Of a DNA stretch of 64,000 nucleotides, positions 3,011-15,852 are shown one piece after another. This stretch comes from a virus: positions 1-64,000 of IMG/VR virus record IMGVR_UViG_3300009152_000039. The stretch is one strand, 5' to 3'. The stretch's first letter is position 1. The number at the start of each line of letters is the position of its first letter. Made by a program: the position numbers and the translations under genes. The notes below the pieces were generated by a model. That model did no database searches. It was not told where the DNA came from and saw nothing but the letters and a program-made list of their open reading frames with translations.

Positions 3011-3207
3011 TGAGCTTTCGTAATACTGGTGTCATGTGTATGGTAGCTGTGCCTGACTACAATCGTGAAGAGGGTTTCAAGAGTGTAGATCTAGGTAACT
3101 ACTTTACAGATCCAAACGGTGATAGGTGTTTGGTGACATCGGTTGAGCTTGCTTCGAAGTACAGTCGGTATGTCAATGTTCCAATTTATACTAGGAGATG
3201 TGTATGA
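3007..3207 (+). CDS. Small unknown protein (66 aa)
   Basis: Overlaps the previous stop (ATGTGATGA). Compact beta-rich sequence (DLGNYFTDPNGDRCLVTSVELA). Member of the same overlapping early operon; function not recognised. Confidence 0.6.
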   Translation: MMSFRNTGVMCMVAVPDYNREEGFKSVDLGNYFTDPNGDRCLVTSVELASKYSRYVNVPIYTRRCV

Positions 3208-3389
3208 GCGAGGCTCGTAGTTTGGATAGTATTGTGAATGAGGTGATTAATCTCTCCGAAGTCCGTAGTGCATTGGATCCTGTTCATTGTGCTGACGACT
3301 TAAAACGAGTTGAGAAGCGGATTGCCTATCTGGAAGGATTGATGGAGAACATGACTATTGAGAGGAGAAGTACCTTTGAAAGTATTTGA
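3204..3389 (+). CDS. Small coiled-coil-like protein (61 aa)
   Basis: Start chosen at 3204 because AGGAG (3193-3197) sits at proper distance and the ATG overlaps the previous TGA; an in-frame ATG at 3198 abuts the ribosome site. The C-terminal part (DDLKRVEKRIAYLEGLMENM) has heptad spacing consistent with a short coiled coil. Confidence 0.6.
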   Translation: MSEARSLDSIVNEVINLSEVRSALDPVHCADDLKRVEKRIAYLEGLMENMTIERRSTFESI

Positions 3390-11873: not shown

Positions 11874-12833
11874 ATGGCACATTTAGTCGAAACTATGGCA
11901 TATGCAGGCGAAACCCCGTGGCACGGTCTTGGTAAATTAGTACCAGGAGACCTTTCTCCTGCTCAAATGTTGGACGCAGCTGGCTTAAACTGGTCGGTTG
12001 ACAAGGTTCCAGCGTACGCTGAGATCCTTGGTAAGCAAGTTTACACTGGCAAAGACGCGTTAGTACGCTCTACTGACGGTAAAATCCTGGATGTAGTGTC
12101 GCAAGACTGGAATCCTTTGCAGAATGAAGAAGCATTTGAGTTCTTTAACGACTTTGTATGCTCCGGTAACATGGAGATGCACACTGCTGGATCGCTAAAA
12201 AACGGTCAAATTGTGTGGGCTTTGGCTAAAGTTAAGGAGAGTTTTGATGTTTTCAACGGTGATCAGGTGGATTCCTACCTATTGTTTACTCTCCCTCACA
12301 AGTTTGGCCAGTCTATTGACGTTCGCTTCACTCCAATACGTGTGGTCTGCAACAACACTCTCACTCTATCACTTAGCAGTAAGCAAGATAACATGGTGAA
12401 GGTGTCGCATCGCAAGATGTTTGACGGTGATCAGGTGAAGCAGACTCTTGGTATTGCGTCCGAGAAGCTTGCAAAGTACAAGGAAATGGCTAAGTTCTTG
12501 GGTTCCAAGAAGTTCAAGCAGGAATCCGTTACAGAGTACTTCAACCGTATCTTCCCTGTTAACGCATACGGTCGCTCTAAGAACGAAGAAACTGCTATCA
12601 AAAAGGAGTTGTCGAAGTCTGCAACTCTGGCTCTGGAGGCTTTGCATGAGCAACCTGGTGCTAAGTTTGCTGAGGGCTCCTGGTGGCAAGCGTTTAACGC
12701 TGTTACATTCCTGACCGACCATGTTATTGGTCGTACTCAAGAAGGTCGTTTGACATCTGCTTGGTACGGTCCTAACAAAGCACTTAAGGTGAAGGCTCTT
12801 GAGACTGCTGTTGAGATGGCTGAAGCAGCGTGA
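11874..12833 (+). CDS. DUF932 / phage-plasmid-like protein (319 aa)
   Basis: ATG 11874 with TTTTTGGAG upstream. The sequence has the family hallmarks: MAYAGETPWHGLGK near the start, LVRSTDGKILDVVS..WNPLQNEEAFEFF, and RFTPIRVVCNNTLTLSL in the middle. Length (319) is usual for the TIGR03299/DUF932 family, found in phages and plasmids with unknown biochemical role. It stands alone between its own promoter and a hairpin terminator, so it is a single-gene unit expressed early. Confidence 0.85.
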   Translation: MAHLVETMAYAGETPWHGLGKLVPGDLSPAQMLDAAGLNWSVDKVPAYAEILGKQVYTGKDALVRSTDGKILDVVSQDWNPLQNEEAFEFFNDFVCSGNMEMHTAGSLKNGQIVWALAKVKESFDVFNGDQVDSYLLFTLPHKFGQSIDVRFTPIRVVCNNTLTLSLSSKQDNMVKVSHRKMFDGDQVKQTLGIASEKLAKYKEMAKFLGSKKFKQESVTEYFNRIFPVNAYGRSKNEETAIKKELSKSATLALEALHEQPGAKFAEGSWWQAFNAVTFLTDHVIGRTQEGRLTSAWYGPNKALKVKALETAVEMAEAA

Positions 12834-12903: not shown

Positions 12904-12949
12904 AACAGTGGCACAATTGTGTCATTATTTAATTAACTGGGAGAATAAA

Positions 12950-13024
12950 ATGGCTTGGACTACACCTTCTGCACAAGATATGCGTTTTGGTTTCGAAATC
13001 ACTATGTATATTGCAAATCGTTAA
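12950..13024 (+). CDS. pqqA: PqqA-like PQQ precursor peptide (24 aa)
   Basis: ATG 12950, with GGGAG (12939-12943) 6 nt upstream. The 24-residue product reads MAWTTPSAQDMRFGFEITMY then IANR. It matches the PqqA family in length and sequence: start MxWTxP, D-[LM]-R-x-G-F-E-[VI]-T-M-Y and a final short tail ending in Arg. Glu16 and Tyr20 in E-x3-Y spacing are the residues crosslinked by PqqE to build pyrroloquinoline quinone. Host PqqBCDE would be needed. The form is beta/gammaproteobacterial rather than the rhizobial type. It is followed after about 10 nt by the tmRNA acceptor piece. Confidence 0.85.
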   Translation: MAWTTPSAQDMRFGFEITMYIANR

Positions 13025-13031
13025 TAAATAG

Positions 13032-13105
13032 TTGTAAAGAATTGTTGTAATCCCTTCAAAGCGAAGGCATGTTGGACGAGGGTTCGATTCCCTCCATCTC
13101 CACCA
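13032..13105 (+). ncRNA. ssrA: tmRNA, acceptor (3') piece of a permuted ssrA gene
   Basis: Ends with a tRNA-like T arm (GAGGG-TTCGATT-CCCTC, 13078-13094), acceptor strand CATCTCC (13095-13101), discriminator A and encoded CCA (13103-13105). The acceptor strand pairs with GGGGATG at 13202-13208, giving seven pairs including the G3-U wobble that marks alanyl-tRNA identity. CATGTT (13068-13073) can pair with AGCGTG (13222-13227) as helix P2. CCTTC (13053-13057) can pair with GAAGG either locally or in the coding piece. The 5' end is approximate. Confidence 0.88.
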
Positions 13106-13201
13106 GAAACATATTACGGCTGAGGTCTAGAGATAACTTCATACTACGCCGTAACAGGATATAGAAGCAGACCTAAACCTGTTGTATAGTGTGTTTCTGA
13201 T
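13106..13201 (+). ncRNA. Intervening segment of permuted tmRNA precursor, with possible kissing hairpins
   Basis: The 96-nt spacer between the CCA end and the coding-piece 5' end. It is closed by CAGAAACA (13104-13111) / TGTTTCTG (13192-13199), 8 perfect pairs. Inside are hairpin 1 TTACGGC (13114-13120) / GCCGTAA (13148-13154) and hairpin 2 CAGG (13155-13158) / CCTG (13178-13181). Loop 1 AGGTCT (13123-13128) is exactly complementary to loop 2 AGACCT (13169-13174). It should be removed during processing. Confidence 0.7.
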
Positions 13202-13368
13202 GGGGATGACCAGGTTTCGACAGCGTGAGATAGTAGAGAAGGCAACACGGTAGGCGATGACCGTAAATCAAGCAAAACAAGTAACCGCAAATGATAGCGA
13301 GTACGCTCTAGCAGCTTAAGCTCTAGATGGGGTTTCGGTGGCTGTCCTTATAACTCAATCAGCCACCA
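13202..13368 (+). ncRNA. ssrA: tmRNA, coding (5') piece with proteolysis tag
   Basis: Begins GGGGATGACCAGGTTTCGAC, the canonical tmRNA 5' half with D-loop-like GGTTTCGAC. The resume codon GCA (13287-13289) opens a tag read ANDSEYALAA with stop TAA (13317-13319); AND...ALAA is the classic ClpXP/ClpAP degron. The stop lies within an AGCTTAAGCT palindrome, as in helix P5. A GGTGGCTG (13337-13344) / CAGCCACC (13360-13367) stem closes the piece. The rescue RNA tags peptides from stalled ribosomes. The 3' end is approximate. Confidence 0.92.
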
Positions 13369-14919: not shown

Positions 14920-15852
14920 ATGTCAAATTTCTCAAGTCTCAAGAAGTCTTCTAAGTCGTCATTCGACAAAATCACCCAACAAGTATCCAAGCTAGCCAAC
15001 CCTGAGGGTGCAAGCGGTCGTGAAGCCGATAATCGCTTCTGGCAACCAGAAGTAGATAAGTCTGGTAATGGATATGCTGTTATTCGTTTCTTGCCATCTC
15101 CCGATGGTGAAGACGTCCCGTTTGTTCGCATCTTTAATCACGGTTTCAAAGGACCTAACGGTCAATGGTATATTGAGAATTCACTTACTACGGTTGGTAA
15201 AGCTGATCCCGTATCTGAGTACAACAGCCAGCTTTGGGCTACTGGTATCGAAGCAAACAAGACTCAAGTACGCAATCAAAAGCGTAAACTAAACTTTATC
15301 TCAAACATCTATGTTGTCAGTGATAAAGCACATCCAGAAAACGAAGGCAAAGTATTCTTGTTTAAATATGGCAAGAAGATATTTGATAAGCTGAATGCTG
15401 CTATGAATCCAGAGTTTGAAGATGAAGCTCCAATCAATCCATTTGATCTTTGGACTGGTGCTAATTTTAAACTGAAGATTCGTAACGTTGAAGGCTATCG
15501 TAATTACGATAAGTCTGAGTTTGATACTGCTGGTCCTCTTTCTGATGATGATTCTGAACTAGAGTCAATCTGGAAGCAGGAACACTCGTTGCAAGAGTTT
15601 TTGGGTGATAAGCACTTTAAGCCATACGATGAGTTGAAGCAAAAGCTATATCGTGTACTAGCTCTTGATGGTGGTGCTGCTAAATCTGTACAGAATGTTT
15701 CTCAGCGTACTATTGAAGAAGATAGTGAAGAAGAGTTTGAGCAGATGGCAAAGCCAGTAAAGAGCGCTAAGCCAGCTTCTAAACCTAAGGCAGATGCCCC
15801 ATGGGATGAAGATGAAGATCTTGAAGCGTTTAAGTCACTAATCAACGACTAA
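14920..15852 (+). CDS. gp32: gp32-like single-stranded DNA-binding protein (310 aa), no zinc ligands
   Basis: ATG 14920 with ATAAGGA upstream. It has the gp32 layout: basic N-terminal B-domain (LKKSSKSSFDKITQQ), OB-fold core (YAVIRFLPSPDGEDVPFVRI, WYIENSLTTVGKADPVSEYN, FISNIYVVSD, FLFKYGKKIFDKL), and an acidic C-terminal tail (DEDEDLEAFKSLIND) that recruits partners such as gp59. The protein has no cysteine at all, so the Cys/His zinc site of T4 gp32 is absent. A bidirectional terminator follows. Confidence 0.93.
   Translation: MSNFSSLKKSSKSSFDKITQQVSKLANPEGASGREADNRFWQPEVDKSGNGYAVIRFLPSPDGEDVPFVRIFNHGFKGPNGQWYIENSLTTVGKADPVSEYNSQLWATGIEANKTQVRNQKRKLNFISNIYVVSDKAHPENEGKVFLFKYGKKIFDKLNAAMNPEFEDEAPINPFDLWTGANFKLKIRNVEGYRNYDKSEFDTAGPLSDDDSELESIWKQEHSLQEFLGDKHFKPYDELKQKLYRVLALDGGAAKSVQNVSQRTIEEDSEEEFEQMAKPVKSAKPASKPKADAPWDEDEDLEAFKSLIND

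Follow-up and report, generated by a model that had tools for sequence, protein, structure and literature searches.

The window, by which we mean the whole 64 000-nucleotide stretch analysed (positions 1 to 64,000 of IMG/VR record IMGVR_UViG_3300009152_000039, a 72.6-kb virus contig), carries a gene for the 24-residue precursor peptide of the cofactor PQQ. The proteins of the window match a T4-like single-strand DNA-binding protein, which identifies the phage type, together with baseplate wedge and hub proteins, a DNA end protector and the large terminase and, judged from these matches, the window is that of a T4-like phage. The features at the locus are as follows.

11874..12833, + strand: conserved phage gene of family phrog_1221, function unassigned in PHROGs; also adjoins pqqA in the phage loci L083 and L022
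12840..12875, + strand: strong hairpin with a T-rich tail after it, probably the terminator for the gene upstream (scan; fold -21.2 kcal/mol, z -4.7)
12904..12929, + strand: imperfect palindrome AACAGTGGCACAATTGTGTCATTATT, lying after the upstream terminator and before pqqA (scan)
12939..12943, + strand: Shine–Dalgarno-like GGGAG, about 7-11 nt before the start codon of pqqA (sequence; Shine–Dalgarno-like motif in 127/127 phage loci)
12950..13024, + strand: pqqA, 24-residue PQQ precursor peptide with Glu16 and Tyr20 intact (PF08042, 39.4 bits; TIGR02107, 38.4 bits)
13043..13319, + strand: permuted (two-piece) tmRNA with tag ANDSEYALAA, directly 3′ of pqqA (ARAGORN; Rfam RF04321, 147.7 bits; RF01850, 152.1 bits)
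14920..15852, + strand: T4-like single-strand DNA-binding protein (phrog_224, E=7.8e-118)

The pqqA gene and its surroundings

The open reading frame runs from the ATG at 12950 to a TAA ending at 13024, 75 bases in all, and translates to MAWTTPSAQDMRFGFEITMYIANR, a peptide of 24 amino acids whose stop codon lies a few residues past the Tyr. A preliminary description, made from the letters alone, had called it a gene for the PQQ precursor peptide at exactly this place, and hmmscan of the peptide bears this out, with significant matches to both PqqA models, namely PF08042 (E=5.7e-10, 39.4 bits against a gathering cut-off of 21.1) and the NCBIfam equivalog TIGR02107 (E=7.6e-10, 38.4 bits against a cut-off of 20). 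Searched with a degenerate DNA pattern that represents the PqqA core, the window gave a single match and 100 dinucleotide shuffles gave none, an expectation of 0.00 per shuffled window. Like bacterial PqqA, the peptide has the characteristic length, a W-x2-P start, an R-x-GFE-x-T-M-Y core and a short basic end, and Glu16 and Tyr20, described earlier as intact, are indeed both present with the E-x3-Y spacing; the good ribosome site that had been reported is the GGGAG motif listed above. The gene is pqqA and not a chance open reading frame. Eight further forms of phage PqqA also score far above the model cut-offs, and the phage peptides remain inside the natural PqqA substrate family; among solved structures, none matches the window peptide by sequence.

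What distinguishes the window copy from its bacterial counterparts is its setting: it lies by itself in a T4-like phage, next to a permuted tmRNA and outside any pqqABCDE operon. The presence of T4-like phage genes around a gene with homologues in hosts makes it a host-derived gene in a genuine phage genome, as is expected of an auxiliary metabolic gene. The probable terminator sets the upstream gene apart from pqqA, which has its own ribosome site. The palindrome is a possible operator or UTR hairpin, and its folding is no better than that of shuffles; sigma-70-like promoters upstream of pqqA showed no excess over chance. In a Rhizobium phage, the homologue of the upstream phrog_1221 gene bears the annotation of a DUF932 protein.

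We regard the permuted tmRNA as a neighbour only, a role for it in PQQ supply not being demonstrated. Permuted tmRNAs with other tags were also seen in the related phages L083, L075 and L041, and in L083 a second element (3288-3345), after pqqA, resembles the 3′ pseudoknot region of its tmRNA at about 3058-3105. The tmRNA was considered as a host indicator and rejected, because those of the Comamonadaceae and Methylophilaceae genomes checked are one-piece, unlike the permuted form of the phage.

Occurrence, annotation and constraint

Scanning IMG/VR with the degenerate pattern found intact pqqA in at least 120 contigs, all with an ATG start and, wherever the contig end permits reading, a Shine–Dalgarno-like motif; in the set of 127 phage loci, isolates included, every copy has one. 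The gene occurs across several unrelated phage groups. A second pattern, for GLE and GME variants, gave 34 further IMG/VR matches, among which those of the GMEITAY kind appear to be phage genes, while those of the Klebsiella kind resemble prophage host flanks. The Klebsiella-type matches were left uncounted, as most of them are found some 430 bases away from a contig end and are probably such flanks; in many prophage-like contigs or loci (L266, L269, L271, L273-L275, L278, L286, L287 and L289) the gene stands about 300-450 bases from the end, which suggests prophages that integrate beside pqqA.

Among 50,697 phage records scanned, ten genuine phages match, nine of which have Methylophilales hosts: four Melnitz isolates, Venkman, P19250A, MEP301, MEP401 and MEP402, the tenth being podovirus MW202481, for which no host is given. 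The gene is present in each of the six distinct genomes of Methylophilales phages that were found (Melnitz, Venkman, P19250A, MEP301, MEP401 and MEP402); beyond this set, the taxonomy also names the Methylophilales phages MEP431-434 and HIM624-A. Matches in records named Acinetobacter phage MD-2021a were treated as bacterial, since in one of them, among housekeeping genes, pqqA is followed immediately by pqqBCDE; the record CAKLQF020000010 (L008) resembles a bacterial contig with a pqqABCDE operon. When the 8-kb pqqA regions of Venkman and MW202481 were compared at megablast level, the pqqA stretch alone was common to both, at 90.6% identity, and this suggests that pqqA moved as a small cassette or was acquired from similar hosts.

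At about 75 bases the gene is missed by standard annotation. The prediction that it would be missing from the annotation of similar phages proved correct, in that the methylophage records either leave pqqA unannotated or overlay it with a hypothetical CDS on the wrong strand, and PHROGs holds no family matching phage PqqA. The main texts of the papers on Melnitz, Venkman, MEP301 and MEP401/402 make no mention of a phage pqq gene.

As the search pattern itself fixes several codons, constraint was judged from the codons left free and from separate scans. The pooled pN/pS over the 127 phage loci, taken from pairwise ratios uncorrected for tree or saturation, is 0.37 at the free codons and 0.22 overall. 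The free Pro codon encodes Pro in 117/117 distinct sequences, four different codons being used, and the stop falls exactly four codons past the Tyr in 126 of the 127 loci. IMG/VR scans for replacement of Glu16 (first base not G, or third base C or T, which covers codons other than those for Ala, Gly and Val ending in A or G) found no contig, and a scan for Tyr20 replaced by a codon not beginning with T found a single contig, with a scrambled tail; these compare with at least 120 intact contigs, some non-Glu and non-Tyr codons lying outside the scans. A peptide identical to that of the window is encoded, with six silent differences, at the loci L011 and L055 of another phage, one rich in tRNA genes. 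Phage pqqA is thus under purifying selection, with strong constraint, and the two residues for which relaxed selection in related phages would have spoken against the preliminary description are those retained. The loci L011, L055 and L041 each hold 13-28 tRNA genes on the opposite strand, running toward pqqA, with the nearest tRNA 44-45 bases past the pqqA stop.

Host type of the peptide and the other PQQ genes

PqqA carries a signature of its host, mostly EMRFGFEVTMYV[MC]N[KR] in Methylophilaceae and mostly DMRFGFEITMYIA[NT]R in Burkholderiales. With the PqqA that Comamonadaceae-type genomes encode in a single copy, the window peptide shares 79-83% identity, against mostly 61-65% with the PqqA of Methylophilaceae, so that by sequence the peptide is of Burkholderiales/Comamonadaceae type. 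The hosts proposed for comparison at the outset (Methylophilaceae, Pseudomonas and Acinetobacter) are accordingly not the closest, the Burkholderiales/Comamonadaceae PqqA being nearer (83%). This similarity points to a PQQ-making host for the window phage, predicted to belong to the Burkholderiales and to possess pqqBCDE.

L083, the closest relative found among the phages, has the upstream gene in common with the window (80%), as well as two genes further downstream (71-75%). Its pqqA is also of this type, but its tmRNA comes before pqqA and not after it. In contrast, L087, with which more distant T4-like genes are shared, has a Methylophilaceae-type pqqA adjoining the gene for the single-strand binding protein. 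From the comparison of these few cases, the type of pqqA may follow the host rather than the phage lineage.

The preliminary description had also noted that the window lacks pqqB-E, so that host enzymes would have to act on the peptide. The first statement holds, as tblastn with PqqB-E gave only insignificant matches in the window and the whole 72.6-kb record has no PqqE, and the second gains support from the finding that phages with pqqA almost never carry other PQQ genes. None of the 127 phage loci contains pqqB-E, and PqqE was above cut-off in 0 of 50 longer pqqA-bearing records, a count limited by the fragmentary nature of many such records. The phages therefore appear to supply the substrate alone. 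Linkage to pqqBCDE, usual for pqqA and absent both here and in the 127 loci, is not a defining feature of the gene, because orphan copies proved common in the host genomes compared as well (see also PMC4109929).

Proposed role and alternatives

We consider it probable that the gene is a functional pqqA acquired from a PQQ-making host, and that the phage supplies PqqA to the host PqqD, PqqE, PqqB and PqqC, sustaining PQQ-dependent dehydrogenases. During infection the phage would produce the 24-residue peptide, which the host PqqD would bind; the radical SAM enzyme PqqE of the host would cross-link Glu16 to Tyr20, a host protease would trim the cross-linked peptide, and the host PqqB and PqqC would complete PQQ, steps that follow established PQQ biochemistry (PMC9851590). 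The supply of PQQ could then be maintained or raised while host expression falls, and with it the activity of the periplasmic PQQ-dependent dehydrogenases for methanol, alcohol or sugar. The foundations of this proposal are the identity and conservation of the gene, the constraint on the cross-linked residues, the fact that the other PQQ genes are missing, and the likeness of the peptide to the PqqA of particular hosts, and from these we infer expression, processing by host enzymes and a benefit to the phage. If the proposal is true, it would show that a phage can feed a host pathway in trans with the substrate peptide of a cofactor that is made ribosomally and then modified.

One PqqA is used for each PQQ, so the peptide is required stoichiometrically and may sometimes be limiting, which would make a gene of 75 bases the cheapest means for a phage to maintain or boost PQQ. 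In Methylovorus, the availability of PqqA is reported to determine the rate (PMC11317620, citing Ge et al. 2015). Methylophilaceae have 3-12 copies of pqqA, the other PQQ genes being usually single-copy (PMC4109929); the host genome copy numbers that we counted likewise show pqqA, and not the enzyme genes, to be multiplied in this family. Against the proposal, some bacteria import PQQ (PMC12124388), so that its synthesis is not necessarily limiting, and the permuted tmRNA does not resemble the one-piece form seen in those genomes of Comamonadaceae and Methylophilaceae that were checked.

The same evidence bears on other explanations. A lone substrate copy without enzymes could in principle compete for PqqD and PqqE, occupying them without yielding PQQ and thereby stopping or diverting host synthesis; such a decoy would require neither of the cross-linked residues, yet both are kept (no exception for Glu, one for Tyr) and the peptide has stayed within the natural substrate family, and we therefore judge an inhibitory role unlikely. 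It is very improbable that the gene is a non-functional passenger, gained from a host by recombination and simply carried, as might be imagined for so tiny and easily transferred a gene with orphan copies in hosts, since purifying selection, the constant stop position and the ribosome site in 127 loci largely refute this, as does its spread over several phage groups that are unrelated. PQQ made from the phage peptide might instead be put to another use, such as lanthanide handling or redox protection; PQQ binds lanthanides, and orphan pqqA genes of Methylorubrum respond to the form of lanthanide present (PMC11317620). The constraint on Glu and Tyr demands PQQ formation either way, and this reading, which seems to us improbable, differs from dehydrogenase supply solely in the use of the PQQ.

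Returning to substrate supply, we lean towards a general, convergent strategy in which unrelated phages of aquatic PQQ-dependent bacteria carry a host-matched pqqA and no other gene of the pathway. In this view PQQ supply would be controlled through the peptide that it consumes, which would explain why the gene stands alone, and the gene would have been overlooked until now because it falls below annotation cut-offs. The findings point to an overlooked and widespread route by which phages may act on the oxidation of methanol and alcohol in lakes and oceans, and the isolates with cultured hosts (Venkman, Melnitz, MEP301, MEP401/402 and P19250A) make the idea directly testable.

Small host-derived genes that sustain host energy metabolism during infection are known from cyanophage psbA and similar auxiliary metabolic genes. 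The product of pqqA differs from these in being a substrate peptide that is consumed, rather than an enzyme or photosystem protein. Viral PqqA as such is already known, but we did not find its breadth, constraint, host matching or annotation gap described in the open literature searched. A 2026 study of reservoir viromes likewise lists pqqA, with pqqD and pqqE, among virus-encoded genes, but interprets them as phosphate solubilisation, and we found no analysis of the peptide itself there (PMC13188868). In Lake Baikal, PqqA and methanol dehydrogenase were reported in 2020 in viruses of methylotrophs, and the PqqA of virus VP_266 was similarly proposed to be the product of an auxiliary metabolic gene for methylotrophic hosts (PMC7678222). 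VP_266, however, also has methanol dehydrogenase, whereas a PQQ alcohol dehydrogenase was found here in one of 50 longer pqqA-bearing records, and the window PqqA is of Burkholderiales type. The one record, L052 (a 72,356-base contig, noted along with L256 and L257), resembles the Baikal viruses in pairing pqqA with a PQQ alcohol dehydrogenase (TIGR03075, 608 bits).
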